Source of the DNA: Burkholderiaceae bacterium
Lineage (GTDB): Bacteria; Pseudomonadota; Gammaproteobacteria; Burkholderiales; Burkholderiaceae_C
Reading direction: 5' to 3'
NCBI GenBank assembly: GCA_919902775.1
Contig: CAKKRJ010000004.1
Coordinates: 1 to 64,000 of the forward strand
Length of the DNA: 64,000 nucleotides
In this document: positions 2,247-34,123 of the stretch, one piece after another
How positions within the stretch are numbered: position 1 is the first letter of the stretch
How the letters are laid out: each line of letters starts with the position of its first letter
Made by a program: the position numbers and the translations under genes
Notes under the pieces: generated by a model
The model's database searches: none
Seen by the model: only the letters and a program-made list of their open reading frames with translations
Told to the model about the DNA's origin: nothing

Positions 2247-3336
<1,090 letters not shown>

Positions 3337-11060: not shown

Positions 11061-13030
11061 ACTGGTTTACCCATCATCGTGCTTTGCTTGCTCAGCCAAG
11101 CTTGGAACATGAGCACACACCACAAGGCATGCTGGTGGTTACGACGGCCGCTCAGATGTTCGGTCCATTTCTGTCTTACGAGACCTGAGTTGAGATATCC
11201 ATCGCGTTTGAGGCGCGCAGGGCTCAAAAGGTCTTCAGCCCATTCCCGCAGAGGCCCTCGCAGCCACTGTTCCAATGGCACCCCAAAGCCCACCTTGGGT
11301 CGCTCTATCAATGCCTGCGGTACATGGCGGTAGAGCACCTGCCGCAACGCCCACTTGGTGACCAAGCCATTTTGTGTGGGACGAAGCTTGTAGGCCATAG
11401 GCAAACGCCAAGCGAACTCCACCACACGATGATCTAAAAAAGGCACACGCGTCTCAAGACTAACGCCCATGGCCGCTCTGTCAACCTTGGTCAAGATGTC
11501 GTCGGGCAAGTAGTTGAGCCCGTCCAGGACCATCATGCGCTGCACATCGCTCAGACCCAAAAGTTCAGGCATCTGCAAAAAATGACCGTGAGAAACGGGA
11601 ACATTCAAGAGCTTGCGCGGTTCAGGCCAGCCCGTAGCGACCAATCCTTGGTAAAGGGCATCGATAGAATCTGCCGACATGACCGATGCACCCTTGTGCA
11701 ACTTGTCCCCCACACCTGCCCAACGCCCTGACCCAGGCAGATGACCGGCCAAGCGATTGAGGGTGGCCGGAGAAAAACGGGTCAGGCCCCATGCAGCGGC
11801 TTGACGCAATGGCCCAGGAACCTTTGACAAACGAGGCCAGAGACTGGCGCTGATTTGGTAACGGTTGTAGCCGGCAAAAATTTCATCGCCCGCGTCGCCC
11901 GACAAGGCCACTGTAACGTGCTGCCTGGTCATTTGACTCACCAGAAAGGTGGGGATTTGGGATGAATCGGCAAATGGTTCGTCGTAAAGCGAGGGCAAAC
12001 GGGGAATCACGTCGAGCGCCTGCTGGGGGGTGACATACAACTCGGTGTGGTCAGTTCCCAGATGATTTGCTACTGCCTTTGCGTGTTCCGCCTCGTTGAA
12101 AGCTTCTTCCGCAAAGCCAATTGAAAATGTCTTAACCGGTCGACTACTTTGGGCCTGCATGAGCGCAACAATGGTGGAAGAATCCACCCCGCCAGACAAG
12201 AAGGCACCCAAAGGAACATCGGCCATCATTTGCTGGCCCACCGCATCTTTAAGCAAATCTTCTAGGGCATCTACTGCTTCTGACTCAGTACCCTCGAACG
12301 GCTGCTTAACACCTTGCGTGGCCACATCTTCAATAGACCAATAGCGATTTACGACCGGCTCCGGTGACTTCAGGCTCACCGTCAATAGCGTTCCTGGCGC
12401 AACCTTATAGATTCCTTTGAAAATGCTCCGGAAGCCTGCCACGACCATGTTTTGCATGAAAGAAGCCAGTGCATCAGAGCAAATTGATGCATCGAAAGCA
12501 GGGTGTACTCGCAATGCCTTGAGTTCGGAGCCAAAGAGAAAAACTGCTTCACTACCCTTCCCTTGCCAACCGTAGTAGAGCGGCTTTTCACCTAACCGGT
12601 CGCGCCCTAAAGTCAAGGTGTTGGTGTGCTTATCCCAAACAGCAAAGGCAAACATACCAATGCACTTTTGAATGGTATTTTCAATACCCCAGGCGTCAAA
12701 GCCTGCGAGCAGAGTTTCTGTGTCTGAATGTCCGCGCCACTTAACAGCTGATTTTATCAGGTCAAACCGACACAAATCATGATTATATATTTCCCCATTA
12801 AATGTCAATACATATCTACCACTTGATGACACCATAGGCTGAGTACCTGCAGGCGACAGGTCAAGAATAGCTAATCTACGGTGAGCAAGGGCTATTCCGG
12901 AGTTAGTATCAACATAAACACCCTCAGCATCTGGTCCGCGGTGAAATAATTTATCTGACATTCTCCTAATGAAAAAATCAGGATCATTTTTAAATCCAGA
13001 ATTGCCTAGAAACCCAACAAATCCACACAT
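11057..13030 (-). CDS. Asparagine synthase-like glutamine amidotransferase
   Basis: 657 aa. Cys2 after Met (MCGFVGFLG) is the class II glutaminase nucleophile, RGPDAEGVY and LAHRRLAILDLS follow, and the synthetase domain has the PP-loop LSGGVDSSTIVAL. In several O-antigen clusters such proteins (WbpS/WbqG type) amidate the carboxylate of a hexuronic acid; with a WbpO-like dehydrogenase in the same operon, amidation of GalNAcA or GlcNAcA is the likely role rather than asparagine synthesis. It is two bases from wzy and overlaps the GT4 gene. Confidence 0.9.
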   Translation of the reverse strand: MCGFVGFLGNSGFKNDPDFFIRRMSDKLFHRGPDAEGVYVDTNSGIALAHRRLAILDLSPAGTQPMVSSSGRYVLTFNGEIYNHDLCRFDLIKSAVKWRGHSDTETLLAGFDAWGIENTIQKCIGMFAFAVWDKHTNTLTLGRDRLGEKPLYYGWQGKGSEAVFLFGSELKALRVHPAFDASICSDALASFMQNMVVAGFRSIFKGIYKVAPGTLLTVSLKSPEPVVNRYWSIEDVATQGVKQPFEGTESEAVDALEDLLKDAVGQQMMADVPLGAFLSGGVDSSTIVALMQAQSSRPVKTFSIGFAEEAFNEAEHAKAVANHLGTDHTELYVTPQQALDVIPRLPSLYDEPFADSSQIPTFLVSQMTRQHVTVALSGDAGDEIFAGYNRYQISASLWPRLSKVPGPLRQAAAWGLTRFSPATLNRLAGHLPGSGRWAGVGDKLHKGASVMSADSIDALYQGLVATGWPEPRKLLNVPVSHGHFLQMPELLGLSDVQRMMVLDGLNYLPDDILTKVDRAAMGVSLETRVPFLDHRVVEFAWRLPMAYKLRPTQNGLVTKWALRQVLYRHVPQALIERPKVGFGVPLEQWLRGPLREWAEDLLSPARLKRDGYLNSGLVRQKWTEHLSGRRNHQHALWCVLMFQAWLSKQSTMMGKPV

Positions 13031-21639: not shown

Positions 21640-22565
21640 GCTTGGGCTCCTTCAAAGTGGTTGATGCGTTCGGCCAGGTACTTGGGCAGGGTGTCCAGCC
21701 CTTCGGCGCGCAGCAGAGTGACAAAGTTTTCATCGGCAAAGAGTTTTTTGAGGCCCTGCACCACCAGCAGCAGGCGCTGGTGAGCATGCTCGGCCTTGAG
21801 GACCATCTTGCGCTGACGCTCCACCTCTTTTTGGTAGGTGCGCACCAGGCTGTAGCTGGAGGTGGGCGGCTTGATCTGCGCCGCGTTGGGAGATGACGGA
21901 CCCAACTCCTGACGCTTTTCGATCAGGCGCTTGGCCTCGATGATCTGGCGGCCTTTGAGCTGGCCGTTTTCATAGGCTTCTTGCAGCAGATCGCCCAGGT
22001 TGGATTCGCCGCCCTCCCCGTTGGAGTTTTGCGGGTCATTGGCGCTGGCCCGGGCAATCTCGAGGGCTGTGGTGAGCGGGATGGAGCCACGCTGTACGCC
22101 TTCGATCAGCCGCTCTTCGCCCTGCTCCAGCAAAAAGACGATGTCGCGCACGTATTTGGGAGACAGGCCCGTCTTTTGGATGATCACATCGGCCGTGTAA
22201 CCTCGCTCGCGCAGCAGCTCAATGTCTGCGAGGATCTCCAGCGGGCGGTAACCCCGGCGGGCGATGTTTTCGGCCAGGCTCATGATGAAGGCGTCTTCAT
22301 CGCTCACGTCCACCACCAAGGCGGGGATGTGCGTCTCGCCCAGGATGCGGAAGGCGTTCAGGCGCCCTTCTCCACAGACCAACACGTATTTGGGTTGGCC
22401 ATCCTCACCGGCACGCTCGGCCACGGTGATGGGTTTTTTGAGGCCGATGAGCTGAATGCTCTCGACGATCTCCTCAAAGACCTTCATGTTGCGGTCGCGG
22501 GAGTTGAGCACCTCGATGCGTGCAATGGGCACCAAGCTCACGTTTTCTGGGGTGTCGGTCATCAT
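21636..22565 (-). CDS. ParB N-terminal domain protein (first copy)
   Basis: 309 aa. The ParB/Spo0J nuclease-like domain is clear: VPIARIEVLNSRDRN, GLKKPITVA, VLVCGEGRLNAFRILG and FIMSLAENIARRGYRPLE, followed by a helix-turn-helix (YTADVIIQKTGLSPKYVRDI). The C-terminal third is charged and probably helical. With the neighbouring RepB-like gene and the serine recombinase it forms a three-gene set without ParA, suggesting a role in DNA binding or mobile-element maintenance rather than ordinary chromosome partition (inference). Confidence 0.82.
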   Translation of the reverse strand: MMTDTPENVSLVPIARIEVLNSRDRNMKVFEEIVESIQLIGLKKPITVAERAGEDGQPKYVLVCGEGRLNAFRILGETHIPALVVDVSDEDAFIMSLAENIARRGYRPLEILADIELLRERGYTADVIIQKTGLSPKYVRDIVFLLEQGEERLIEGVQRGSIPLTTALEIARASANDPQNSNGEGGESNLGDLLQEAYENGQLKGRQIIEAKRLIEKRQELGPSSPNAAQIKPPTSSYSLVRTYQKEVERQRKMVLKAEHAHQRLLLVVQGLKKLFADENFVTLLRAEGLDTLPKYLAERINHFEGAQA

Positions 22566-22637
22566 GTAGGTCTCCTTGATGAGTGTGTTGGGGTGGTGAG
22601 CATGGAGTGAGTCCTTTCAGGTTTATGGAGGGGGGGC

Positions 22638-24185
22638 TTAAAACTTACGCTGCAATCGTTCGCGCTCTGACATGCCGTAAAAGAAGTTCAGGTCGTCAAA
22701 GCGGAAGCACTCGAAATTGGCGCTGTTGCGGTTGCAGACCCGGATCTCCTGTTCGGGCAAGTCCAGACGGGGCAGAAGGTAGTAGTCGAGCTCGCTCGCG
22801 TTTTGCGGGTCAAGCCGCACCGCGACGGTGATGTCTGGGTTGAAGCGTTCGGTGTCAAACCGGATGCGCCAGCGGTGCTGGCCATTGGGCAAGGTCTGGC
22901 AGCGAGCCAGCACCAAGCTGATGACCAACTCGTCGTTGAGGGTGAGCAGGTCGGTCTTGCCGTCGCGGTGCACGCTGCCGCCCAGCTCGGCAATAGTCTC
23001 TTCGGTGCGGCGTACGATCTCGGGATGGAGCTGCCGCAGCCGCCGGTTGATCTCGATGAAGCCCTGATCGCGCGAGGTATGAAACCCCACCAGCTCATAG
23101 GCGCGGGTGAGGCTGCCAAAGCGGTGGGCATAGGTGATGGCGCATGGCAAGCCCGGGGCCTGGTCGATGATGAGGCCGGACAACGTGCCGCAATCGGCAT
23201 AAAGCTGCTTGAGGTGAGCCAGCAACTCGTCATCGCTGTAACGGCGGGTGCGCTCAGCCAGCACTTCTTGGGCTTTGAGGAAGGTGTCCAGCGGTACGAT
23301 GCCTTCAAACGCGCCCTCTTTGCGGATCCACATGGCTGGCGGGTTGTTGACATGCAGCTTTTTGAGCTTGAAGGAATGGCGGTTGTAGACGTTGTTGCCG
23401 ATGTACTTTTCGTTGGTCAAAACCTGGCGCACGGTGCTGTAGGTCCACGATCGGTCAAAGTCGGTGCGAATGCCTTGCGCGTTGAGCCGGTTGGCGATGT
23501 CCACAAATGAGGCATCTTCCTCAATTAGCCACCGAAACATCTGCAAGACGGTGGCGACTTCATGCTCGGGGCCGGGCATGAGGATGACGCGATCGGTCTG
23601 CAGGCTCTTGTGCTCGCCGTTCTTGAGCTCGCTTTTGATGGTGCCGGTTTGGTCGATCAGCACACGGCGCAAGCCATAACCTGCGGTGCCACCTTGCCGA
23701 AACCCCATTTCAATCAGGCGGCATTGACCGGCAAAGACCTTGGCTGACAGCTCCCGGCTGTATTCCCCCGCCATCGCGCGCTTGACGCCTTTGACGATCG
23801 TGGAGACTGGTGAGCCGTCGTTTTCAAACTGCTCGGCCACGTAGGCCACGTGGATGTTCTTGCGTTTGCAGATGTACTCGTAGTAAGCCGACTCGTCCGC
23901 ATCCTGAAACCGGCCCCAGCGGCTGACGTCATAGACCAGGATCAGGCTGAAGTCGGTATTGCCGGATTCGACGTCGTGAATCAGCCGCTGCAGAGAAGCG
24001 CGACCATCGATAGACAGGCCGCTTTTGCCTTCGTCGGCATAGGTGCGCACGATCTCGATGCCACGCCGGTCAGCGTATTCCTGGATCTTGTCGGCCTGGT
24101 TGTGCGTGGAGTACTGTTGATGCTCGGTGGACATGCGCACGTACTGGGCAGCTCTGAATGATTTGGGTGGTTCTTCTGGGTGCAT
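22638..24185 (-). CDS. Large serine recombinase
   Basis: About 515 aa. The resolvase catalytic domain begins near residue 10 with QYVRMSTEHQQYSTHNQ, in which the Ser of RMS is the nucleophile; YADEGKSGLSIDGR, LVYDVSRWGRF and KRAMAGEYSRELS complete it. A recombinase domain follows (GYGLRRVLID, IEEDASFVDIANRLNAQGI, YSTVRQVLTNEKYIGN). I see no cysteine zinc ribbon in the C-terminal half. It could integrate or invert DNA for its own element or for the adjacent prophage, which has no visible integrase. The start is uncertain: ATG 24185 gives the usual length; ATG 24299 overlaps the NusG-like gene. Confidence 0.85.
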   Translation of the reverse strand: MHPEEPPKSFRAAQYVRMSTEHQQYSTHNQADKIQEYADRRGIEIVRTYADEGKSGLSIDGRASLQRLIHDVESGNTDFSLILVYDVSRWGRFQDADESAYYEYICKRKNIHVAYVAEQFENDGSPVSTIVKGVKRAMAGEYSRELSAKVFAGQCRLIEMGFRQGGTAGYGLRRVLIDQTGTIKSELKNGEHKSLQTDRVILMPGPEHEVATVLQMFRWLIEEDASFVDIANRLNAQGIRTDFDRSWTYSTVRQVLTNEKYIGNNVYNRHSFKLKKLHVNNPPAMWIRKEGAFEGIVPLDTFLKAQEVLAERTRRYSDDELLAHLKQLYADCGTLSGLIIDQAPGLPCAITYAHRFGSLTRAYELVGFHTSRDQGFIEINRRLRQLHPEIVRRTEETIAELGGSVHRDGKTDLLTLNDELVISLVLARCQTLPNGQHRWRIRFDTERFNPDITVAVRLDPQNASELDYYLLPRLDLPEQEIRVCNRNSANFECFRFDDLNFFYGMSERERLQRKF

Positions 24186-24289
24186 GGAGGTCTGGGGTAC
24201 TGCTGGGTTTTGTTCGTGCAGACCATGTTGGCTTCGAAGCGGCAGAGCTATCAAGTCATTTCTGGACCCAACTTGCAGACTTTTTGCGA

Positions 24290-25201
24290 TCAGCCACATT
24301 TACGCAACTTGCCTGGCTCGATGCGCATGGGCACCGGCTTGTTGAGCATGGACAGCAAGATCATGGAGCGCCGCTCGGCATCTGCCGTTTGGTAGATCGC
24401 CTCGATGCCAGCGAAGGGGCCATGGGTGATGACGACCTTGTCGCCTGCGGCAAAGAGAGCCTGGGGATTGGACTGCTGGAGTTGCTCGCGCTCGTGCAGT
24501 GCCGTGATGAGCTCTGCATCGACCTTGGGCGGGTGACCGCCAAATTTGACCAACTCGCGCACACCCAAGGTGGACCGAATAGGCGACCAGCTTTGGCCTT
24601 GACCGCTGGTGTCCAGCTGCACAAACACGTAGCTGGGGAACATGGGCTCGGCCACCACCACCGGCTTGCCCCGGCGGACCTTTTCCACATAGAGCATTGG
24701 CATGTAGCAACGGAAGTTTTGCCGCTGCAAGTTGGTGGTGGCTGTGTCTTCTTGGCGGGCTTTGGTGTGGACCAGGTACCAGGCGTGGTTGGGTTGCAGG
24801 CTGAGGTCTTGAGGTGGACTGACCAGGGATGGCATTGGCAGCTTGGGCTCAGCCATAGGCATCGGCGCCTTCACCTTGGGCGCGGGCTTGAGGTCTTCAC
24901 GCACCGCTGGCTTGAAGACCGTGGGATCGGATTCAACGCCCTGGGTGTTGACCGCCAGGTCAAGCGATCGGGCAATTGAGCGGATGAGCGGCAATGGCCG
25001 CTCGTGCTGCAGCACTTGCCTGAGGAGGTTTCGAACTTCACGCTGCTCGAAGGCCTCCAGGTCTTCAAGTCGGTAGTGAACGGCAAGCCCTTGCTGAAAG
25101 ATGGGCAGGCCATCGTCTTGCCAGCGCAGCTTTTGCAAACTGCCGGGGGTGAGGCCCAGGCGCTCAGCGGCCTCTTGCGTGGTGAGCAGCCTGGGGGTCA
25201 T
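24290..25201 (-). CDS. NusG/RfaH-like antitermination factor with N-terminal helix-turn-helix
   Basis: 303 aa. Residues 1-60 form an excisionase/MerR-like HTH (LLTTQEAAERLGLTPGSLQKL, then YRLEDLEAFEQREV). A proline-rich linker (about 95-150) leads to an NGN domain starting WYLVHTKARQEDTATTNLQRQ and including PMFPSYVFVQLD, and a KOW-type end FAAGDKVVITHGPFAGIEAIYQ. NGN+KOW is the RfaH/NusG layout, binding RNA polymerase to suppress pausing; the HTH fusion is unusual. A perfect ops core lies 4 kb downstream in the polysaccharide leader, the likely target. The ATG at 25201 begins MTPRLLTTQEAA; a start 17 codons upstream adds unrelated residues. Confidence 0.85.
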   Translation of the reverse strand: MTPRLLTTQEAAERLGLTPGSLQKLRWQDDGLPIFQQGLAVHYRLEDLEAFEQREVRNLLRQVLQHERPLPLIRSIARSLDLAVNTQGVESDPTVFKPAVREDLKPAPKVKAPMPMAEPKLPMPSLVSPPQDLSLQPNHAWYLVHTKARQEDTATTNLQRQNFRCYMPMLYVEKVRRGKPVVVAEPMFPSYVFVQLDTSGQGQSWSPIRSTLGVRELVKFGGHPPKVDAELITALHEREQLQQSNPQALFAAGDKVVITHGPFAGIEAIYQTADAERRSMILLSMLNKPVPMRIEPGKLRKCG

Positions 25202-25305
25202 ACATCGCTTGTTATGAGTGTCATACCAGCATGAACGCTCTGGTGGGCACACAAGTCAAGCGAATGGGAGCGCTGTTTTAAAGGGGTGTGGCTGTTGCCC
25301 CCGTT

Positions 25306-25893
25306 CTATGGCTTTTCTCCGGCTTTGGCCTGTTCGGCGTACCAGCGCTGGAATGACAAAACCATGAGCGTGGCCTCGGCAGCATCACTGGCCAGTTGTT
25401 CGCAGCTCACGGGGATCTGAGCGCTGGTGAGATCAGGTAAAGCGTGGGCGGCGGCTGCATCAACACCGGTGGCAGACTGGGCATGGGCGGACAAGGGGCC
25501 GGGACTGCTGGTGCTGGTTGAGTCGCGCAGGCGGTCAGCGTCAGTGCGCAGGACAGGAGGCACAGACTGCGAATTGGGCGAGTCAGGCGATACAGCCACT
25601 GGAATGGCGGAAGCCTTTGGGGGTTGCCACAGGCGCTGAAGTTGGATTTTGCGAGTGTCATGGTCGGAGGTGATACGCTTGTTGATCTGTTCTTGCCGGT
25701 TTTGAACCTGGGCCACCTGCAGGGATTGCTGCAAGGCGGTGGTTTGTTGCTGCAGTCTCTCTGCGTCCCACGCCTGCTGAACGCCCTGCTGCCCCAGCCG
25801 GTGGCCAGCCCAAAACAGGCCCGCAGCCAACAGGCTTGAGACGATCCATCGCAGGGGCAAGGCGCCAAGCCAGGGTAATAGCCACGCACTCAT
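25306..25893 (-). CDS. Rz-like i-spanin
   Basis: 195 aa. One N-terminal membrane anchor (about residues 5-27, WLGALPLRWIVSSLLAAGLFWAG) is followed by a long Gln-rich coiled coil (WDAERLQQQTTALQQSLQVAQVQNRQEQ) reaching into the periplasm, as in lambda Rz. It bridges inner and outer membrane with Rz1 in the last step of lysis. The start at 25893 overlaps the endolysin stop as ATGA. A Cys (SCEQLASDAAEATLM) is near the C-terminus. Rz1 is nested in another frame. Confidence 0.85.
   Translation of the reverse strand: MSAWLLPWLGALPLRWIVSSLLAAGLFWAGHRLGQQGVQQAWDAERLQQQTTALQQSLQVAQVQNRQEQINKRITSDHDTRKIQLQRLWQPPKASAIPVAVSPDSPNSQSVPPVLRTDADRLRDSTSTSSPGPLSAHAQSATGVDAAAAHALPDLTSAQIPVSCEQLASDAAEATLMVLSFQRWYAEQAKAGEKP
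25407..25595 (-). CDS. Nested Rz1-like o-spanin lipoprotein
   Basis: Lies wholly inside the Rz gene in a different frame. A basic stretch and hydrophobic core RLTRPIRSLCLLSCALTLTA end in the lipobox LTAC, leaving a 40-residue proline-rich mature part (CATQPAPAVPAPCPPMPSLPP and onward), the size and character of mature lambda Rz1. No ATG or GTG precedes the signal at a suitable place; a CTG at 25595 is the nearest candidate, so the exact start is uncertain. The protein should be an outer-membrane lipoprotein acting with Rz. Confidence 0.75.
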   Translation of the reverse strand: MYRLTRPIRSLCLLSCALTLTACATQPAPAVPAPCPPMPSLPPVLMQPPPTLYLISPALRSP

Positions 25894-26372
25894 GTGGCCC
25901 CCGGTGATAGGTTCAGCGGCAGGTCCAGCGCTTCGAGCTGGTACTTGTCGATCATGGTGATCAACTTGTCGGCATAACGCGGGTCGGTGGCATAGCCCGC
26001 CTTGGCCACGGCTTGGGCGAAGGCTTTGCCTGTGGTGCAGGCGAAACAGGCGGCGTAGCGTTTGTTGCGGCGCAAAAACTGCCCATGGTCCACCAAACAG
26101 CCATGCCAATCGGGGTAGGCACGCCAGTCCGCCGGGATGACCACCCATTGCTGGTTCAGAAACTCTCGGGTGTTGAGGGTGATGCGCTGGCCCGTCCAGC
26201 TGCGGTCGGCCTTGATGCCAAAGAGGTTCATGGCCCGCTTGGCCAGGCCCGACTCACCCCAGCCGGACTCCAGAGCGGCTTGGGCCACCACGAAGCTGGC
26301 GGGGATGTTTGTCTGTAAGCGGCTGGCTTGGGCAGCTGGGCCGATGAGCGCGATGAAGTCTTGCGGTTTCAC
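25890..26372 (-). CDS. Phage endolysin, GH73 glucosaminidase (FlgJ-like)
   Basis: 160 aa. The glucosaminidase core is visible: FVVAQAALESGWGESGLAKRAMNLFGIKA (about residues 28-56) with the catalytic Glu in ALESGWGES, and later YAACFACTTGKAFAQAVAKAGYATDPRYADKL, typical of FlgJ-type enzymes cleaving the GlcNAc-MurNAc bond. There is no signal peptide, so it should need the holin. It overlaps both the holin and Rz by ATGA, giving a compact holin-endolysin-Rz/Rz1 cassette. Confidence 0.9.
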   Translation of the reverse strand: MKPQDFIALIGPAAQASRLQTNIPASFVVAQAALESGWGESGLAKRAMNLFGIKADRSWTGQRITLNTREFLNQQWVVIPADWRAYPDWHGCLVDHGQFLRRNKRYAACFACTTGKAFAQAVAKAGYATDPRYADKLITMIDKYQLEALDLPLNLSPGAT

Positions 26373-26752
26373 AGCATCTCCTTCACGTCCTTGGCCACCT
26401 GGTCGATGGAAGCGTCTCGGCGCTGACCGATGAAGTTAAACACCCAGCGCACCATGGCCCAGCCGGGCAAACCGCAGGCGAACATGAGCCCGCCCAGGGC
26501 GCACAGGCCTACCGTAGAAAACGCCCAATGGTGCAAATGAAAATGCTCGACCGTGATGGCACCGCCCCCAATGCTGGAAACCACGGTGCTGATGAGCCCT
26601 ACGGCCCATTCGCGTTTGTCACGCGGTGGCGTCATGAGCATGACCACCACCGCAGCCAAAGTGGCCCCACTGGCCACCGCCGCAGCAGTGCCGCCAAAGG
26701 CCTTGTAGGCGACGGCCGCCCCTGCCACGCCTGAGCTTGTCGGTTCGGGCAT
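26369..26752 (-). CDS. Putative holin
   Basis: 127 aa with about three hydrophobic segments: GGTAAAVASGATLAAVVVMLM (about 19-39), VGLISTVVSSIGGGAI (about 51-66) and STVGLCALGGLMFACGLPGWAM (about 79-100), and a charged C-terminal tail. Size, topology and position directly before the endolysin fit a phage holin, though the sequence family is not certain. ATG 26752 has GGAG seven bases upstream; a TTG four codons earlier is less likely. A terminator ends just upstream. Confidence 0.75.
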   Translation of the reverse strand: MPEPTSSGVAGAAVAYKAFGGTAAAVASGATLAAVVVMLMTPPRDKREWAVGLISTVVSSIGGGAITVEHFHLHHWAFSTVGLCALGGLMFACGLPGWAMVRWVFNFIGQRRDASIDQVAKDVKEML

Positions 26753-26767
26753 ACGTTTCTCCAAAGT

Positions 26768-26801
26768 AAAAAACCCGCGCTGACCGAAGCTAGGCGGGTG
26801 T
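26768..26801 (-). terminator. Rho-independent terminator after the radical SAM gene
   Basis: On the minus strand ACCCGC pairs with GCGGGT around a 15-base loop containing TTCG, followed directly by TTTTTT. It lies between the radical SAM gene and the holin, so transcripts from the tail side should stop or be reduced here and lysis genes need read-through or their own promoter. Confidence 0.7.
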
Positions 26802-26811
26802 GTGTTGGGTT

Positions 26812-26859
26812 GACTGTTGAATAGACTGTTGAATGGACTGTTGAATTGACTGTCGAACT
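26812..26859. repeat. Four tandem 12-base repeats
   Basis: Unit GACTGTTGAATN occurs four times in a row (last copy GACTGTCGAACT). It sits between the radical SAM stop and the terminator. On the minus strand one open frame reads NSTV/HSTV/YSTV repeats and begins with a TTG overlapping the radical SAM stop, but no ribosome-binding site precedes it. Confidence 0.9.
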
Positions 26860-26873
26860 AATTGTGTTTTGAC

Positions 26874-28232
26874 TCAAGCAGCGACAGTTCGGTCGTAGGC
26901 CAGGATCGGAATCACGCGCTTGGTGCTTTGTTCGGGGACTCCATGGAGCTGCCCGAAGATGTCTTTGCGGTCTTCACGAAAGTCGCCGTCGATGTAGTAC
27001 GGAATGCAACCCGTGAGGTACTCGATGGCCGCAGCCAAAAATGGCACGTTGTCCGAATAAGCTGCGTCGCAACCTGCATCCCACAGCGGCCCCTGCAAAA
27101 ACATGCATGAGCCCTTGCACAGTTGCAGCACCGGGCAACTGAGGCAATCGGGCCTGTGGCTCCAGTGCGTAGCGCTGCGCATCTTGACCGCCTGCAGATT
27201 CGACAAATGGCCAATCTGGTGAGGTTGACCATTGGGCGCAGTGGCTGCTGCGCTGACGTTCTGACAGGTGAGCACATTGCCGTGCAGGTCCACCGCCAGG
27301 TTGTTCAGCTTGTCCATGCCGCACTTTTGACCCAGCGAGGTTGCTGGTCGAGCTGAGCGGATAGACTGCACAAAGTCCATGATGCGCTGCTGCGCCACCG
27401 ACATGCGCGAAGCCAAGCCCTGGCGCAGTTCTTTGTAGGCCAAGGCCCTGAACCGCACATGGTCCTGCTGGGTTTGCAAGGTTGCCGCCAATCCGCCTTC
27501 GTCGTAGGGATCAATGAAAGCACCCTCCCCGATGTTCACGTCCTGGCCAAACCGCTGCTGCAACCAGGCCTGAATCTGCGCCCGACTTTGGTTGCCAGCA
27601 TGGACCATGGCGTTGATGCTGATACGGCCCTGAGGATGCAAGCGGGCATACAGGTCCATGATGGCGGCGAATTTCTTAGGGTCGCTCAATGGATCGGGGC
27701 CACGGGTCGACTGGCCTGGACCGTCGTGCGACAAGCCCACAGAAAACCCCATGCGGTCAAGCCACTCGTTCTTACCAGCATCGAGCAAGCTGCCGTTGGT
27801 GATGACGCTGAACTGAGCATCCGGATACAAACCACGCAAACGTTCAGCAAGCGGCTTAAGCGTCTTCCAGTACACCAAGGGCTCGCCACCCCAGAATTCG
27901 ATGCGCTCGGGTGGTTCAAGAAGCGCATCGGTCAGTTGACTGATGAACGGCTCGATGTCATCCGGGTTGCTCGCATCCGCATGCGGCACAAAGCGCTGGT
28001 TGCAGTAACTGCATTCGTAATTGCAGGACAGCCCCAGGCTGATCTTGAGGATGCGCACCTGGCCCTTACGGCCAGGTTGATTGACCGAGACCACTGTGGC
28101 ACCTCGGAAACTGCCGGGCTGAACCGGCACCACGGGTGTGCCGTCCTGCCAGGTCAGCGTGGACAACTGGTTGTCGTAGTGCAGGAAAACTTTCTTGCCG
28201 TCTTGGCGCAAGGCGTGAATCTGAAACTTCAT
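26874..28232 (-). CDS. Radical SAM/SPASM protein, putative peptide or protein maturase
   Basis: 452 aa. The SAM [4Fe-4S] motif C-x3-C-x2-C is in LSCNYECSYCNQRF (about residues 90-103), with EFWGGEPLVY (GGEP, SAM binding) at about 141-150. A SPASM-type C-terminal region has the ordered cysteines KCGMDKLNNLAVDLHGNVLTC, CLSCPVLQLCKGSC and WDAGC for auxiliary clusters. Enzymes of this layout modify Cys, Ser or other residues of peptides (anSME, RiPP maturases). Here it is phage-borne, next to oxygenases and near a fibre with a Cys-rich tail. The ATG at 28232 overlaps the oxygenase stop as ATGA and has AAAGG upstream; an upstream in-frame ATG (28424) would add 64 shadow residues. Confidence 0.9.
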   Translation of the reverse strand: MKFQIHALRQDGKKVFLHYDNQLSTLTWQDGTPVVPVQPGSFRGATVVSVNQPGRKGQVRILKISLGLSCNYECSYCNQRFVPHADASNPDDIEPFISQLTDALLEPPERIEFWGGEPLVYWKTLKPLAERLRGLYPDAQFSVITNGSLLDAGKNEWLDRMGFSVGLSHDGPGQSTRGPDPLSDPKKFAAIMDLYARLHPQGRISINAMVHAGNQSRAQIQAWLQQRFGQDVNIGEGAFIDPYDEGGLAATLQTQQDHVRFRALAYKELRQGLASRMSVAQQRIMDFVQSIRSARPATSLGQKCGMDKLNNLAVDLHGNVLTCQNVSAAATAPNGQPHQIGHLSNLQAVKMRSATHWSHRPDCLSCPVLQLCKGSCMFLQGPLWDAGCDAAYSDNVPFLAAAIEYLTGCIPYYIDGDFREDRKDIFGQLHGVPEQSTKRVIPILAYDRTVAA

Positions 28233-28837
28233 GAAAGAACCTTTGGCGGCTCCTGCAGCCGCGTTTTGAACACCAAGACCGGCCGCAGATCGCGGCAGGC
28301 ACGGGAGATGGGGTTGACGCCATGGCGGATGTGCCCAGCAAAGAACACCACCCGAGCGGGCGCGGGCATGACCGATCCCAACAGGCGACCCTCCTGGTCG
28401 TAGAACACTGTCTCTCCGCCCCACCCTGCTTGCCAGTGCCGCACGCCGTAGATCAACAGGGTTCTGTCCAGCGGATGCTGGCTATCAATGTGGACATTGC
28501 CTTCATTGCCGTGGGTGTTGGCATTGGCGTAGACGCCATGGCACTGGGTCATGACAGGCAGTTGCAGCGCCCGCATGCATGACAGCCAAACATCAGAGAG
28601 CACGCTGGTTTGATCCTGCAGGAATTGCGGCGTGCAGCTGTAGTCCGAAGCTTGGTTGATGGGCCAGTCCCGACCCAACAATTCGCGGTGCCAGATCGGA
28701 AACGGCTCCGGCTCGTTTTTGTTGGTGATGCGGTAGTAGCGGTACTGCAGGTGCTGCAGCCAATCGACGAGCTCCTGCGTTACGCCCGGATCCAGAACGC
28801 CATCTGCGAATGAAACGGGACTGCGGGCGTCAAGCAT
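28229..28837 (-). CDS. 2OG-Fe(II) dioxygenase, prolyl 4-hydroxylase-like
   Basis: 202 aa double-stranded beta-helix protein. The iron ligands are readable: H-x-D in GNVHIDSQHP (about residues 116-125), the distal His in GHIRHGVNPIS, and the 2-oxoglutarate-binding Arg shortly after in CRDLRPVLVF. GGETVFYDQEGRLLGSVMPAPARVVFF is the usual strand pattern before the distal His. Such enzymes hydroxylate Pro, Lys, Asp or Asn side chains or small molecules. The start at 28837 overlaps the preceding gene by 8 bases and it shares ATGA with the radical SAM gene, so co-expression with the maturase is expected. Confidence 0.85.
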   Translation of the reverse strand: MLDARSPVSFADGVLDPGVTQELVDWLQHLQYRYYRITNKNEPEPFPIWHRELLGRDWPINQASDYSCTPQFLQDQTSVLSDVWLSCMRALQLPVMTQCHGVYANANTHGNEGNVHIDSQHPLDRTLLIYGVRHWQAGWGGETVFYDQEGRLLGSVMPAPARVVFFAGHIRHGVNPISRACRDLRPVLVFKTRLQEPPKVLS

Positions 28838-29549
28838 GTTCTGCCTCCGGTTCTGCGACCGAGTGAAACTCGATGGCCAGGGTGTCGCGTGTCTGGCTGC
28901 GCAGAGGAAAGTAGCCATGCGGCGTGCACAGGGGCATGGTCACAAGCAAGCCCGGCTGCGGCGTGATCGGGAAATGCACCGGTGTTTCCCAGGGCAGCAG
29001 GGTTTCATTGACGCGTTTGGCCGGATTGCCAATGACCATACAACCCGGCGTTCGCACATTGGGGCTGTCGGTCCTTGGGTAGTCCGCTTGCAAAAACAGC
29101 ACCGTGTTGAGCCCCGCACGCGAGCTGGCGATGTGCTCAGCCACATGAAATCCCGGCTGACAGCGCATGATGTGGGCGCTCAGCCGGTATCGGTATGTGC
29201 CCCAGATGGATTGCAGGTGCTCACGGACCACCGCCAACATGTCATCCAGACCATCCGCCGGGGATACGCCTCCCTGCAACAGGTCGTGGCTGCGGCACTG
29301 CCAAGCCTCGGGACCCCAGCGATGTTCGGCGTCTTCCCGAAAGACGGCCGTCGCCAGTCGTTCAAGCCGCTCTCGAGGCAAGCCAGAGGGCTGGACGTAC
29401 ACGGTACTGGGCCACAAAGAAAAAACCCAACGTTGGAGTGACGTTGGGTGGTTTTCTGAGGCGACAGTCAATGAGGGCGGGTGTGGGCTGGCTTGTGTGG
29501 CCACCGCCATGATGGGTGGCGGGGCGTGCGCTGATGCATCAAATGACAT
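28830..29549 (-). CDS. Putative 2OG-Fe(II) oxygenase-like protein (degenerate motifs)
   Basis: 239 aa. The pattern FHVAEHIASSRAGLNTVLFLQADYP, then PGLLVTMPLCTPHGYFPL and TRDTLAIEFHSV recalls 2OG-Fe(II) oxygenases of the his-rich DSBH type, with a candidate distal His (PHGY) and Arg (TRDTLAIEF), but the H-x-D/E pair is not canonical. Function is therefore tentative. AAGGAGTG precedes ATG 29549, a strong start. The first 45 residues are proline-rich and low-complexity, and a terminator-like hairpin lies in this part of the gene, so a later GTG start (near VYVQPSGL) is the alternative. Confidence 0.55.
   Translation of the reverse strand: MSFDASAHAPPPIMAVATQASPHPPSLTVASENHPTSLQRWVFSLWPSTVYVQPSGLPRERLERLATAVFREDAEHRWGPEAWQCRSHDLLQGGVSPADGLDDMLAVVREHLQSIWGTYRYRLSAHIMRCQPGFHVAEHIASSRAGLNTVLFLQADYPRTDSPNVRTPGCMVIGNPAKRVNETLLPWETPVHFPITPQPGLLVTMPLCTPHGYFPLRSQTRDTLAIEFHSVAEPEAEHA
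29416..29455 (-). terminator. Terminator-like hairpin within the 5' part of the oxygenase gene
   Basis: A perfect 9-base inverted repeat (ACCCAACGT / ACGTTGGGT, 7-base loop, 29425-29449) is followed on the minus strand by TTTTTTCTTT and on the plus strand by GGTTTTC. This is a textbook intrinsic terminator for minus-strand transcripts, but it sits about 95-125 bases inside the open frame that begins at 29549. Confidence 0.7.
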
Positions 29550-30528
29550 GAATCACTCCTTGGGCCAGTGCGGTGACGGCCCCTAATCCAAATTGAAGGT
29601 GCAGGTTTTCTCCGGCACGCAGGCCCAGGGCCAGGGCCCGAATTTGGGCCCTTCCTGCAACCATGCGAACGCGCTGATGTGGGACATAGCCCGAGACGGC
29701 GTGCACATGCAGCCAGGCATCGGCGGGCTCTGAAGCCCGTATTTCCAACTCCACCCACTGGTCTGTTGTCACCACTGGTGGGGCTTGCACAGTGAGCTTG
29801 GGCATGTGTTCATGCAGCCGGGTGATGGTGTGGGCATGCCCGGCCAGAGCGTCACTTGGCTTGGCATAAGTCACGTGCTCATCCACTTGAAGGTTGGTCC
29901 AAAGTGGTCCGCCTGGGTGAGCGTTGATGCGCAGCACCATCTGAGCGCTGAGCGGCGATTTATGCCATGGCACAAGGCATGACCCGGCAACCAAGTGCAG
30001 CGGGCGCGCCTTGGTGAGCGACAAAGACAAGGCGGTAAAGCCCTCGCTGTCTACCCGGCTGCTGCGGGTTAGCAGATGGCGGTTGAAGGGTGTCATGAAA
30101 CGCCAGGTATCTGTGCACAGCACAAACATCCAGGCGGCCCAATCACTCAGGTGCTCGCCGTACATGCGGGGCTTGGCGCGCATGGCCTGTGGGTCCAGAG
30201 CGATTTCATCGACCAGGCCCCACTGAACGCCTTCAATGGTCTCGGTGTGGCCGGATGGCATGTCCAATCTGACTGGCAAGATAAATGGGCTGGACTGTCC
30301 TCGTCTAGGCAATGAATGCGCAGCTAGGATTGAGGCGCCTGAAGAATGGACTTGATACTGCTTTTGGGTCACCTTGCCGACAGGGTAATTTGGCTGGAAC
30401 GTCTCCAATGGCTCCCACAGCCGCCAGGTCAGGCGATCCGCTTCAGCCAGAACCTCCACGGCCAGCGGCTGTTTGAATTCATCGACCCGCTGCACGAAGC
30501 GAGCGCAGACTATTTCAGCACCGCTCAC
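29539..30528 (-). CDS. Unrecognised phage fibre-region protein
   Basis: 329 aa without a family I recognise. No signal peptide or membrane segment. It is rich in beta-prone stretches, and the second half (QWVELEIRASEPADAWLHVHAVSGYVPHQRVRMVAGRAQIRAL) looks like an Ig-like or carbohydrate-binding beta-sandwich. It overlaps the upstream gene by ATGA and the downstream oxygenase by 11 bases. A virion accessory or a partner of the modification enzymes are both possible. Confidence 0.7.
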   Translation of the reverse strand: MSGAEIVCARFVQRVDEFKQPLAVEVLAEADRLTWRLWEPLETFQPNYPVGKVTQKQYQVHSSGASILAAHSLPRRGQSSPFILPVRLDMPSGHTETIEGVQWGLVDEIALDPQAMRAKPRMYGEHLSDWAAWMFVLCTDTWRFMTPFNRHLLTRSSRVDSEGFTALSLSLTKARPLHLVAGSCLVPWHKSPLSAQMVLRINAHPGGPLWTNLQVDEHVTYAKPSDALAGHAHTITRLHEHMPKLTVQAPPVVTTDQWVELEIRASEPADAWLHVHAVSGYVPHQRVRMVAGRAQIRALALGLRAGENLHLQFGLGAVTALAQGVIHVI

Positions 30529-31319
30529 ACCCGCACCTCCAGCTCTTCGACACCGCTAAACCACTTGAACCCCAGCTTGATCTTGACCAGAGCACCAGGA
30601 TCTGCGCCAAAGAGCGTGACAAGGGCTTGCCCTTGATCCAGGTTTGGGCGGCTGTTGCTCAGGGCTCCGGCCGTAGTGCTCAGCAGCACCTGCCCGGACG
30701 CCGGGAGCACCATCCCCTGGTCATTGACCGCCGTGATGCGGATGCGCCGTGGCTCACCCCCCTCATCGACCAGCCGAAACGAGGGAAATGCCAGAGCCAT
30801 GGCAACCGAATTGCTTTCCCACTCTTGGTCAAACTCAAAACCGGTTACCTCGGTCTGACCCGCTTGGGGAGAAAACATGAGCACCAGCGAAGGCTCTAAG
30901 CCCAGCGGTGGGATCCAAAGCTGGGCCAAGACCAACATGGGCTGCTGGTTCCAGTACTGCCGAAACCCCTCTTTGGACAAAGCAGTCTGTGCGAATTTGT
31001 TGATCCACACCGGCTCGCTCTGTCCTTGGCGCAAGGCAAAGAGCCAGACGGTGTAGCCGTTGCCGGGGTCTCCGGCCAACTGATGCATGTCAGCTTGCCG
31101 CAGGGCATGAACGAATGCACTTTGATGACCTGACAGGGTGGGCTGCGCAGATTCGTCAATGACACGACCAGACTCATCAAGCGCCAACTCGTAAGCGGGC
31201 AGCAGATGTTCGATGTAGAAATCACCATCGATCAGTTCGATGCGGATTTTGTTGGTGCTTTGCGCGTTGTTCACGCTAGCTGGACTTTGCCAAGGATAGG
31301 GCATGCGGATGGTTTTCAT
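30525..31319 (-). CDS. Unrecognised phage fibre-region protein
   Basis: 264 aa, not recognised. It starts at MKTIRMPYPWQSP 14 bases after the Cys-rich fibre gene; an ATG 14 codons upstream would overlap that gene's 3' end. The C-terminal 90 residues (RRIRITAVNDQGMVLPASGQVLLSTTAGALSN...ALVTLFG) resemble an Ig-like beta-sandwich such as invasin/Big domains. It may be a structural adhesin or assembly partner of the fibre. Confidence 0.7.
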   Translation of the reverse strand: MKTIRMPYPWQSPASVNNAQSTNKIRIELIDGDFYIEHLLPAYELALDESGRVIDESAQPTLSGHQSAFVHALRQADMHQLAGDPGNGYTVWLFALRQGQSEPVWINKFAQTALSKEGFRQYWNQQPMLVLAQLWIPPLGLEPSLVLMFSPQAGQTEVTGFEFDQEWESNSVAMALAFPSFRLVDEGGEPRRIRITAVNDQGMVLPASGQVLLSTTAGALSNSRPNLDQGQALVTLFGADPGALVKIKLGFKWFSGVEELEVRV

Positions 31320-31333
31320 GGACAAGCTCCACA

Positions 31334-32281
31334 TCAGCAGCCGCAACAATTGCAGTTGCAATCACAGTTGGTGAAATATTTGACCGATCGCAGTCGAATC
31401 TGGCCGCCCTCATCAATCAGCTCATGAATACGACCAGAGTTGACGTTGCCGCTGCCATAGCAATTGATGGCCACATCACCCGTGCCGGGTTGGCTTGCGC
31501 AGTTGGCGGTTGACCGGAAGAAGTAGTCGTGCAGCCAGCCATAGTTGGCGGTCCACATGGAGCCGCCGTTGTTCATGTACATGTCCCAGTTGCCGTCGGT
31601 CTTCAAAAACCCCATCAGGTTGCTGTTGACGTGCAGATAACGGGTACTGCCTTGATCTGTGTCGTAAAAGTCGATCGTGGGTGCAGTGCTCTGCACGGTC
31701 TGGCTGGGCAGTGTCAGGCGCCCACTCATGCTGTCGCCAGTGCGCGCTACCCGCCCCGACAAATCGATGTTGACCGTGGCGTTGCCGTTCGCGTCAGGAC
31801 CACCACCGTTAACCGTGCGGACAAAGGCCGAGGCGTCGTAGCCGTCCAATCGGTCCGCGTCCGTCGCCTTGGCGCTGATGCCCAGATAGGCCGCGTTGTG
31901 GTTGTGCGAAGTCGATGCAAAAGCGCTGGCGTGCTGGCCGTCGAGCAGGTCGGCATCGAGCCCGGAGCCGGAGCCATCCACAGTCAGCAGCTTGGCCAGC
32001 ACATCGGCAGCGGTGTAGGCGGCGGCATTGAGCTTGGCTGCAAACTGGGCATCGATCCCACTGGCCAAGTCCATGATGAAGCGCCAGTTATCCGGGTTGG
32101 TGCCGATCAGCTGATAGAGCTTGAGCTGGTCCGTGCGGTAGCACAGCATGCCCACTTGTTGGTTGGTCGTCGGAAATGTGGTGCCGCTGTTGCAGGAGAT
32201 CGCCGTCTTGTCGTTGTTCAGGATCTCGATGAGCGAGTCAGACAGCGTGCGCGACGACGGGATGTCGGTGAAGTTTTGCAT
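31334..32281 (-). CDS. Phage tail-fibre-like protein with a six-cysteine C-terminal tail
   Basis: 315 aa. The N-terminal part (MQNFTDIPSSRTLSDSLIEI onward) is a common tail-fibre start. The middle contains the short fibre repeats LDADLLDGQHASAFAS and ATDADRLDGYDASAF (the DxLDGxxAxxF phage fibre repeat), then TGDSMSGRLTL. The C-terminal region looks like a beta-rich receptor-binding tip. The last 11 residues are NCDCNCNCCGC, six cysteines in eleven positions, right before the stop. Such a tail suggests metal binding, disulfides or enzymatic modification. An upstream in-frame ATG 18 codons earlier is possible but overlaps the preceding gene. Confidence 0.85.
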   Translation of the reverse strand: MQNFTDIPSSRTLSDSLIEILNNDKTAISCNSGTTFPTTNQQVGMLCYRTDQLKLYQLIGTNPDNWRFIMDLASGIDAQFAAKLNAAAYTAADVLAKLLTVDGSGSGLDADLLDGQHASAFASTSHNHNAAYLGISAKATDADRLDGYDASAFVRTVNGGGPDANGNATVNIDLSGRVARTGDSMSGRLTLPSQTVQSTAPTIDFYDTDQGSTRYLHVNSNLMGFLKTDGNWDMYMNNGGSMWTANYGWLHDYFFRSTANCASQPGTGDVAINCYGSGNVNSGRIHELIDEGGQIRLRSVKYFTNCDCNCNCCGC

Positions 32282-32318
32282 GGTGAATGGGTGGGCAAAT
32301 GACTTGAGAGACTGCGGT

Positions 32319-33671
32319 TCAGTAGCCCTGCGCAATCCAGGTGAACGTGCCGGTCACGCGAGCGCCAGAAGTGTTTTCTAAAGCTGCTGTAAAGCCTGTC
32401 CGGGTGACCGCACTGGCAAGACGCGGGATGGCGACCACCGTGCCGCCCTTATGGGTCATGGTCACCTCAGGCGGCACCCTAAAAATTCGGGCAAAACCAA
32501 TCACAGCGCCTGCCTGCGCATCGGTGATCTGCACAGTGCCCCGGTCAAAGACATCGGGCACATCCACCGTCACGCGCAGCGCATCAATGAAGCCCCGGTC
32601 GGAGTTTCTGGACTTCAGGATGGCCCGAAACAAGGCCTTCTGATAGGTGTAGTCACCCTGAATGAAGTCCCGGAAATCCGTGTAGCCCGGTGGATGCCCC
32701 GCTTCGACGATGCTTGCGAAGTCGGCCTCGGTGATCTCAGTGCTGGCCACGATCATGTCGCTGATCACACCGTTGGCGTGGCGGCGGTACTGCTCGGTAA
32801 GCGCCAAGGCTTCATGAGCCTTGAGGCGCATCGCCCGGCGCAGGGCATCCGAGACACCCAGCCCTTCTTGCAAGAGCCGCCTGTACGCCACTGTGCGGCC
32901 CAAGGTTTCGGCAAACGCCAATGCCTCGACCACTTGCTTGACGGATCTGCGGGTAAGCTGATCGTTTGTGCTGAGAGCCTCAGCGACTGGCTTTTGAAGC
33001 CGCCTGGCGGTCTGATCGCTCACAGCAAAACCTTCGCCAATGCGCAGGAAGAAGGCGATCAGGTCGTAATAAGTTTCAGCAAATTTCAGCGCTTCGGAGA
33101 CCTGTTTTCTGAAACCTTGATCCAGGCCATCGGTCAAAACCACCTTTTCAGTGAATGCTTTGGCAGATACCCGAGCGGATACCGATGCCACCGGCAGGCT
33201 CTCGGCATGCTTTTGGCGCATCTGGCGCGACAGGCCTTCGGTCACAGGCAAGCCTTCTTGCAGGGCTTTGGCTAGTGACCGGGCCAAGCCATCCAGCGTT
33301 TGGAGGTTTTCTTGAACGGACTTGCGGCTGGAATTGGAAACGCCATCTGCCACCCCCAGCGACTCAACCCAGCGCAGGACATAAGCGATCAGGTCGTAGT
33401 AGGTGTCGGCAAATCCGAGTGCCTCTGCCTTTTGCAGTGCGGCTTGATGCCGACGGGTTTCTGCGAATGATAAAGTTTCAGTCAGGCGTTTGCCATGCTG
33501 ACGGCCTGAAGCCTCAACCCAAGCGAGTGTGGCAGCCACTGTGACCACATAGACAGCGGGGTAAGCCGTGAGCCACGATTTGCCTGCACTGGCGCTATGC
33601 CAAGTGAAACTGGCATTGGCCCAGGTGTAGCGCGGCCCTTGGGACTCGCCTACAGTGACTGTCTCGGCCAT
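32319..33671 (-). CDS. Repeat-containing phage tail/fibre protein
   Basis: 450 aa. Residues about 60-300 are made of imperfect repeats of roughly 20-25 residues with a K/R...EaL.(f/v)aE/D...R pattern, including two long near copies (ADTYYDLIAYVLRWVESLGV and AETYYDLIAFFLRIGEGFAV). The C-terminal 110 residues (YTDFRDFIQGDYTYQKALFR ... FARIFRVPPEVTMTHKGGTVVAIP ... GTFTWIAQGY) look like a compact beta domain similar to H-type lectin ends of phage tail proteins. It lies 5 bases after the preceding gene. Likely a fibre shaft with a binding tip. Confidence 0.75.
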   Translation of the reverse strand: MAETVTVGESQGPRYTWANASFTWHSASAGKSWLTAYPAVYVVTVAATLAWVEASGRQHGKRLTETLSFAETRRHQAALQKAEALGFADTYYDLIAYVLRWVESLGVADGVSNSSRKSVQENLQTLDGLARSLAKALQEGLPVTEGLSRQMRQKHAESLPVASVSARVSAKAFTEKVVLTDGLDQGFRKQVSEALKFAETYYDLIAFFLRIGEGFAVSDQTARRLQKPVAEALSTNDQLTRRSVKQVVEALAFAETLGRTVAYRRLLQEGLGVSDALRRAMRLKAHEALALTEQYRRHANGVISDMIVASTEITEADFASIVEAGHPPGYTDFRDFIQGDYTYQKALFRAILKSRNSDRGFIDALRVTVDVPDVFDRGTVQITDAQAGAVIGFARIFRVPPEVTMTHKGGTVVAIPRLASAVTRTGFTAALENTSGARVTGTFTWIAQGY

Positions 33672-33676
33672 GGTGA

Positions 33677-34123
33677 TCAGCTCATGGTGAAGGTGAACAC
33701 GGCCGTCAGACTGTCATCCGCCCCCTTGTTCACCACCGGGAACACCACCCTGTCGAGCATGATGCCGCCCGATGCGGCATTGAACACCCCGGCTTCTGTG
33801 ATCGCTCCCGTGCCGTCACCTGCAGGGAAGTCGGCCGTAAAGCTGAAGGCTTTGGTGCCAACTGTGTGGGCGTAGGTGGCGGCGTTTCGATCGAGCTCGG
33901 AAACCAGGGCCGACTGGCTGGCCGCAGCCGCCGTGGTGCCCGTGCCCAAGGCGATGAAACCCATGACCGAGGGACGACTGGCGGGTTTGCCGATGGCGTC
34001 GGCGATGAAATCAAAGCCAACGTTGACGATGATGTTGTCTTTGTGAACGGTTTCGATGTCGCCACTGGCGCGTCGAACAATGAGGGTCATCGCCCCCTGC
34101 AGTTGCATGGTTTCGTCAATCAT
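33677..34123 (-). CDS. Phage tail-region structural protein
   Basis: 148 aa. MIDETMQLQGAMTLIVRR, then VNVGFDFIADAIG...FIALGTGTTAAAASQSALVSELDR and a beta-rich end. This arrangement (a short N-terminus, then an ALGTGTT-like turn and an AGVFNA motif) recurs in small fibre-associated proteins of lambdoid phages; function unknown. ATG 34123 has AAGG upstream; an ATG 32 codons earlier would cross the terminator. Confidence 0.75.
   Translation of the reverse strand: MIDETMQLQGAMTLIVRRASGDIETVHKDNIIVNVGFDFIADAIGKPASRPSVMGFIALGTGTTAAAASQSALVSELDRNAATYAHTVGTKAFSFTADFPAGDGTGAITEAGVFNAASGGIMLDRVVFPVVNKGADDSLTAVFTFTMS

Follow-up and report, generated by a model that had tools for sequence, protein, structure and literature searches.

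The window, by which we mean the whole 64,000-nucleotide stretch of Burkholderiaceae DNA analysed here, carries in a phage tail region a run of minus-strand genes that leads from a tail-fibre gene, through two accessory genes and two genes of 2-oxoglutarate (2OG)-Fe(II) oxygenase type (OX1 and OX2), to a gene for a radical S-adenosylmethionine (SAM)/SPASM protein, P0001 (Table 1). A reading made from the letters of this DNA (the sequence-only reading) had singled out the last three genes, which do overlap on the minus strand at 26874–29549 as it claimed. The fibre ends in NCDCNCNCCGC. Many phages appear to possess a fibre that ends in such an alternating Asn-Cys tail, the tip of which is probably finished chemically by the adjoining radical enzyme. 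We consider it probable that this is a maturation system resembling those of ribosomally synthesised and post-translationally modified peptides (RiPPs), residing within phage tails, with the radical SAM protein acting on the Cys-tailed fibre.

P0001 was correctly recognised by the sequence-only reading as a radical SAM/SPASM protein with a CxxxCxxC motif and seven SPASM cysteines. An alignment of 37 rows shows no variation at the motif cysteines (C70, C74 and C77) or at six of the SPASM cysteines (C304, C323, C363, C366, C372 and C376); the seventh, C388, is kept in at least 90% of the rows. The protein scored 34.2 bits against TIGR04085 (SPASM), above the cutoff of 27, and 29.1 bits against Pfam PF04055 (radical SAM), slightly under the cutoff of 29.5. 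It also matches phrog_1802, a family labelled merely 'radical SAM domain-containing protein'. The predicted structure (pLDDT 92) is nearest to anSME, CteB, ChlB, TigE and SuiB, followed by viperin-like and other small-molecule enzymes; among viral proteins, one from Podoviridae sp. ctXdu7 matches it best (TM 0.76–0.80).

To quantify the association between radical SAM protein and Cys tail, we collected 90 loci with relatives of P0001, 78 from viral contigs (the best 80 of 83 matches having been kept) and 12 from genome contigs. We scored a locus as positive if a same-strand gene no more than 8 kb upstream encoded CxCxC within its last 40 residues. Such a gene was present in 77 of the 81 loci with at least 4.5 kb of upstream DNA (81/90 overall); the background among other closed open reading frames (ORFs) of at least 60 residues in the same loci was 12 of 5,682. 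In the reverse direction, we searched viral contigs for a DNA pattern encoding CNCNCNC, which gave at least 80 loci; the following figures apply to the 80 listed. The pattern lay in frame near a C-terminus in 34, and 29 of these had the radical SAM gene downstream, including all 22 with at least 3.5 kb of downstream DNA (17 of the 22 on contigs outside the forward set, five already in it). Where the same DNA pattern did not encode a C-terminal tail, the radical SAM gene was found in 1 of 46 loci (L116), and in none of the 20 length-matched controls with at least 3.5 kb past the pattern. Thus, the homologs co-occur with Cys-tailed fibre genes in both directions, as the sequence-only reading had proposed to check.

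Two cultivated Achromobacter phages, JWF and 2-1 (NC_029075 and OQ974181), encode this radical SAM protein (≈ 52% identity) and a fibre with an NC tail. Confirmed relatives of the JWF fibre numbered 152; among the best 80, 21 loci had both Cys tail and radical SAM gene, 50 had neither, eight had the motif without the enzyme and a single one (L217) had the enzyme, in pieces, without a strict tail. Two of the eight (L231 and L238) are short of downstream DNA, and five look spurious by eye. A second copy of the cassette lies on another contig of the window's genome (C3; 83% DNA identity) with its own fibre, which ends in ANCNCNCNCCGC. With this second copy and the recurrence in tens of loci, the arrangement exceeds chance, and its constant unit is the radical SAM protein plus a Cys-tailed protein.

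The composition of the Cys tail is simple. After 10 spurious ORFs had been left out, the 352 residues interleaved with the cysteines comprised 263 Asn, 41 Ala and 31 Asp. Cys was the final residue in 56 of 80 distinct tails. The motif occurred on 15 clusters of protein bodies, four of which were spurious by eye (the 10 ORFs above), leaving 11 fibre bodies without detected similarity to one another. None of 10 tail proteins scanned against NCBIfam gave a convincing named family (two matches, both below cutoff). In one pair of loci (L057 and L084), the tails are near-identical (0.97) and the radical SAM proteins similar (0.89), the bodies less so (0.46).

Some tails are followed by a Hint domain. 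In the JWF fibre, NCNCDCNCNCSC passes directly into such a domain, which was also named by the depositors; the Hom_end_hint match in this protein (gp028; 47.5 bits versus a cutoff of 32.1) starts at residue 308 and spans the first 37 of 228 model positions only. Phage 2-1 has, by sequence, a Hint domain in the same place, a Halomonas locus shows the same tail–Hint junction below the Pfam cutoff, and in a bacterial locus (L321) a Hint-like stretch after the tail was seen by eye (no Pfam match). Hint domains are of a self-cleaving type and cut at their own first residue. Therefore, the mature form of a Hint-bearing fibre would end in the Cys tail. We take the junction as a suggestion, independent of the counts above, that the tail must be C-terminal.

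The oxygenases are less constant. OX2 is the clear 2OG-Fe(II) dioxygenase it had been taken for: it scored above the cutoff of 2OG-FeII_Oxy_3, and the HxD...H...R motif is present as judged by eye. Its best PHROG label, 'DNA endonuclease V', was not adopted. OX1 had no Pfam, NCBIfam or PHROG match at the limits used. Its AlphaFold2 model, with a mean pLDDT of 76 and disorder over the first 36 residues, has a predicted double-stranded beta-helix fold and matches PHD2, the Pseudomonas putida prolyl hydroxylase P4H, 2rg4 and 3bvc at TM ≈ 0.5 (Foldseek), and a relative in locus L028 matches PF13759 below cutoff. The fold thus agrees with the putative oxygenase assignment of the sequence-only reading; the HxD/E...H facial triad does not. 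H139 and H211 are invariant in a 24-row alignment, and the position two past the first His is an acid in many rows but Ala141 in the window's subgroup. OX1 may be inactive, may use another acid or may work differently. HxA in place of HxD/E is known from Fe/2OG halogenases, and the HxA of the subgroup could be a halogenase-like feature or a loss of function.

With matches at any place in the locus counted, at least one of three oxygenase profiles was found in 49 of the 77 tail loci (two of the 49, L040 and L065, weakly) and none in the other 28, and we rejected the idea that the oxygenases form the core of the system. Both oxygenase families of the window were present in 15 of the 77. The three-gene cassette is thus not supported as the unit that recurs. 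Accessory proteins are more regular: the cluster that contains both accessory proteins of the window was found in 48 of the 77 loci, and any of three accessory clusters in 74. One of these clusters is unlike both others, which share a C-terminal stretch of 62 columns. The order tail gene, accessory gene, radical SAM gene is kept in most of the loci listed.

Several loci depart from this simple scheme. Three (L039, L046 and L049) have three tandem genes, each marked as Cys-tailed, ahead of a single radical SAM gene, whereas one Cys-tail gene accompanies four matches to the radical SAM family and a further CxxxCxxC ORF in L107, and five such matches in L321. In L022 and L025, at least five further genes separate tail gene and radical SAM gene, among them one gene pair with desaturase-like His motifs by eye (the one scanned had no Pfam match). 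In L101, two small ORFs (2383–3116) that hold 20 and 18 cysteines adjoin the radical SAM genes, a heme oxygenase gene (Pfam, 1.6e-16) overlaps the end of the radical SAM ORF in L056 (11353–11886), and L067 has a gene for the TRAP-type solute-binding protein DctP (11765–12712; Pfam, 2.8e-47), the cluster of which lies near the radical SAM gene in 14 loci.

The gene layout points to a common transcript. The fibre ORF had been listed as 31334–32335 with a TTG start; the relatives are listed from MQNF, which gives the 315-residue version. With the starts of the fibre and accessory protein 1 set by hand, these two genes are 14 bases apart and all subsequent neighbours overlap by 4 to 11 bases through to the radical SAM gene. 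Therefore, the unit starts with the fibre gene, and the cassette genes are the end of one tightly packed operon. A scan of 22000–34000 for sites of the sigma-70 type found no promoter-like site at the cassette; its one hit lay elsewhere (shuffles gave 2.7). Tail-fibre-like genes lie 5′ of the cassette, and a phrog_1024 gene, of a family of unknown function and taken here as holin-like, and a glucosaminidase endolysin gene lie 3′ (Pfam and PHROGs), in agreement with the earlier placement between fibre and lysis genes. Past the lysis genes, 24290–25252 encodes a protein with a NusG domain and an N-terminal HTH_17 domain (Pfam, 9.5e-22 and 2e-6), possibly a phage-borne NusG/RfaH-like regulator.

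Table 1. Features of the fibre–radical SAM operon in the window
Feature	Position	Strand	Evidence
Intrinsic terminator between radical SAM and lysis genes	26768–26801	−	Hairpin of −13.2 kcal/mol, then T-run
P0001, radical SAM/SPASM protein, 452 residues, putative maturase	26874–28232	−	Sequence, Pfam, NCBIfam, alignment, predicted structure
OX2 (P0002), 2OG-Fe(II) oxygenase	28229–28837	−	PF13640, 30.8 bits versus cutoff 27
OX1 (P0003), 2OG-Fe(II) oxygenase-fold protein	28830–29549	−	AlphaFold2 and Foldseek; PF13759 in relative L028 below cutoff
Hairpin and T-run within first 42 codons of OX1, possible attenuator	29425–29449	−	
Accessory protein 2, without Pfam match	29539–30528	−	
Accessory protein 1, without Pfam match, same homology cluster as accessory protein 2	30525–31319	−	
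Tail-fibre protein, 315 residues, start MQNFTDIPSS, presumed substrate	31334–32281	−	PHROGs tail-fibre matches
Cys tail NCDCNCNCCGC, C-terminus of fibre	31337–31369	−	Sequence; tails in relatives

The sequence-only reading had placed an intrinsic terminator at either end of the three-gene block. The downstream terminator falls between genes and can be seen in seven of the 13 relatives displayed (the other six displays covered another stretch); the terminator scan missed it, as its loop exceeds the limit of the scan. The upstream hairpin sits inside the P0003 ORF, which begins with an ATG at 29549 that has AAGGAG six bases 5′ of it. Matches to the hairpin patterns occurred in 13 of 13 relatives. 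In 13 pairwise comparisons with the window, third positions accounted for 105 of 237 changes in the first 38 codons of OX1 versus 635 of 947 in the rest. This lower share indicates that protein-level constraint on the beginning of the ORF is no more than weak. The hairpin is possibly an intragenic attenuator that lowers the level of the enzymes relative to the fibre.

We scanned bacterial genomes for the radical SAM protein with alignment A3. Among 399 genomes drawn from the order, those with a match of E 1e-60 or better were the window's genome and six more; among 398 drawn across the phylum, the window's own genome alone matched. A separate genome scan added a seventh other genome (G097). 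Plasmids gave no match at 1e-15. The phrog_1802 profile was rejected as a genome probe, being too general (it matched 148 of 150 genomes and all 14 controls). We inspected ≈ 12–19 kb around each radical SAM gene, and a Cys tail was found in three of the seven other genomes (L316, L317 and L321). In the locus of another of the seven (L320), the radical SAM gene lies within a cluster holding two more weakly recognised radical SAM genes; a RiPP-precursor-like ORF at 9839–10780 of that locus, with a leader ending LEQVAGGGG and a hydrophobic core, is fused to a Hint-like domain (by eye; no Pfam match).

How might the enzyme act? The fibre would be made with its C-terminal tail of cysteines alternating mostly with asparagine, alanine or aspartate, and the neighbouring radical SAM/SPASM enzyme would work on the tail before or during assembly. 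That the Cys tail is the substrate we regard as very likely. The likeliest products would be thioethers that join the sulphur of Cys to a carbon atom of an Asn or Asp close by. PapB links Cys to Asp or Glu at Cys-Xn-Asp with n of 0–6 (PMC9413430), which is compatible with the Cys–Asn/Asp alternation of the tail. Given the alternation of Cys with Asn, Ala or Asp, thioether formation is the most economical guess, and as a specific chemistry we rate it as somewhat less likely than not. In the phage of the window, the two oxygenases may oxidise the product further, for example by hydroxylation. The result would be a compact, oxidation-stable tip, probably close to the receptor-contacting end of the fibre; the chances that it has a role in adsorption seem about even. 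Where a gene runs past the tail, the Hint domain would cut and leave the tail as the C-terminus. A RiPP would be a ribosomal precursor with a modified segment whose gene adjoins that of its maturase; of this, the linkage is observed here, and the one candidate for leader removal is a possible cut by the Hint domain in other phages.

Each of the known systems differs in some respect. PapB, like other ranthipeptide maturases, is a radical SAM/SPASM enzyme. Of the NCBIfam models, that for PapB (NF047865) fits P0001 best, and 37 of 37 relatives match it, but P0001 reaches 54.3 bits against a cutoff of 340, and we use PapB only as a comparison of how such an enzyme works. Moreover, the tail on which P0001 would act belongs to a 315-residue virion protein, and in such tails Asn is far commoner than Asp. 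The closest solved fold to the P0001 model is the anaerobic sulfatase maturase anSMEcpe (4k39), although P0001 scores far below the cutoff for that family and the tail has no motif of the CxPxR type, the substrate motif of sulfatase maturases. FlmE and FlmC (NF052473 and NF052475) are a SPASM peptide maturase and a 2OG-Fe(II) oxygenase that share a gene prefix in NCBIfam; FlmE/OhkG was matched by 16 of 37 radical SAM proteins, and OX2 matches FlmC at 4.7e-13, but with 49.6 bits against a cutoff of 240. We found no paper on this pair in the open-licence part of PubMed Central (PMC). Phages JWF and 2-1 differ from the window by the Hint-type domain after the tail and by having one gene between fibre and radical SAM gene; the JWF gene in this place is of a different accessory cluster. 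No description of radical SAM modification of a phage fibre or adhesin was found in the open-licence PMC literature; the enzyme families are known, and what appears to be their use at the tip of a virion adhesin is undescribed in the literature searched.

Several results weigh against maturation of the Cys tail by this enzyme. By its score, P0001 is not a member of the PapB family. The anaerobic sulfatase maturase and viperin models, too, match 37 of 37 relatives. Since three models each match all relatives, resemblance to a family does not point to thioether chemistry in particular. Four of the 81 forward loci lacked a qualifying tail: L024 and L089 have none, L091 (Polynucleobacter) has an imperfect one, NCNCDRNCGC, and in L092 the tail is followed by a Hint-like domain; in the latter two, the radical SAM gene is in pieces. 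Tail and enzyme have possibly decayed jointly in the prophage loci L091 and L217. The loci share ancestry, the 77 positive ones holding 67 distinct radical SAM sequences. A 236-residue phage protein ending in AKCCSCAC (L243, 1749–2459) has no radical SAM gene of the family in its locus and is unexplained. Once body similarity was removed, co-divergence of tail and radical SAM protein had no support (partial rho 0.05; 241 of 1000 permutations; 55 dereplicated loci), and we dropped this line of argument. Finally, four of the seven other bacterial genomes (L318, L319, L320 and L323) have no Cys tail near the radical SAM gene, and the surroundings look chromosomal rather than phage-like (L319 and L323 by eye), with a flagellin gene (Pfam) adjoining that of L318. 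Therefore, non-phage members with other substrates probably exist.

These points bear on three other explanations. The tail could be a metal- or Fe–S-binding tip, or its cysteines could be oxidised, for example to formylglycine, so that the enzymes tune the tip rather than cross-link it. Alternating cysteines are good metal ligands, and anSME, which oxidises Cys or Ser in a protein, is both the top fold match and the source of a model that fits all relatives. However, no recurrent metal-loading gene was recognised near the radical SAM gene (most intervening clusters have no family match), the genes that do recur there encoding accessory proteins, 2OG oxygenases and DctP (13 of 77 loci), and the anSME model gives P0001 41 bits against a cutoff of 349. 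We judge this explanation unlikely. It is less probable still that the radical SAM protein and the oxygenases modify a different protein, either an accessory protein or a host peptide, and merely travel with Cys-tailed fibres. The tail-less bacterial genomes and the recurrence of accessory proteins would fit such a substrate, but not the 22 of 22 reverse loci or the gap of 16 to 19 bases between tail gene and radical SAM gene in four loci. Furthermore, the tails sit on dissimilar bodies, and it is the accessory proteins that vary, in three clusters, while the tail stays constant.

The sequence-only reading had seen in the block the layout of a moron, an insert between phage genes that has its own promoter and terminator. 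The third explanation is accordingly a moron of benefit to the host, bearing its own terminators and expressed in the lysogen. Hairpins do occur at both ends, and the downstream one is intergenic, but the upstream hairpin lies within an ORF that has a good ribosome-binding site, the genes overlap from accessory protein 1 through the radical SAM gene in an operon that starts at the fibre, the sigma-70 scan left the cassette without a promoter-like site, and tail gene, accessory gene and radical SAM gene keep a constant order in most loci listed. We therefore rejected the terminator-bracketed moron, which is now highly improbable.

If the Cys tail is indeed matured by its neighbour, the phage radical SAM family phrog_1802 gains a substrate and a testable job. 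It is an open bet, at roughly equal odds, that RiPP chemistry makes a widespread class of virion part, in which (Asn-Cys)n tips on dissimilar fibres become a cross-linked, sometimes oxygenase-decorated distal knob, with a Hint domain releasing or capping it in some phages. Peptide natural-product chemistry would then act on virion adhesins and would be missed by structure prediction and by recombinant fibres made without the enzyme. Such a system could further be a source of enzymes for modifying large folded proteins at a short Cys tag on the C-terminus. For the phages themselves, it would be a new route by which a virus hardens or diversifies its contact with the receptor.

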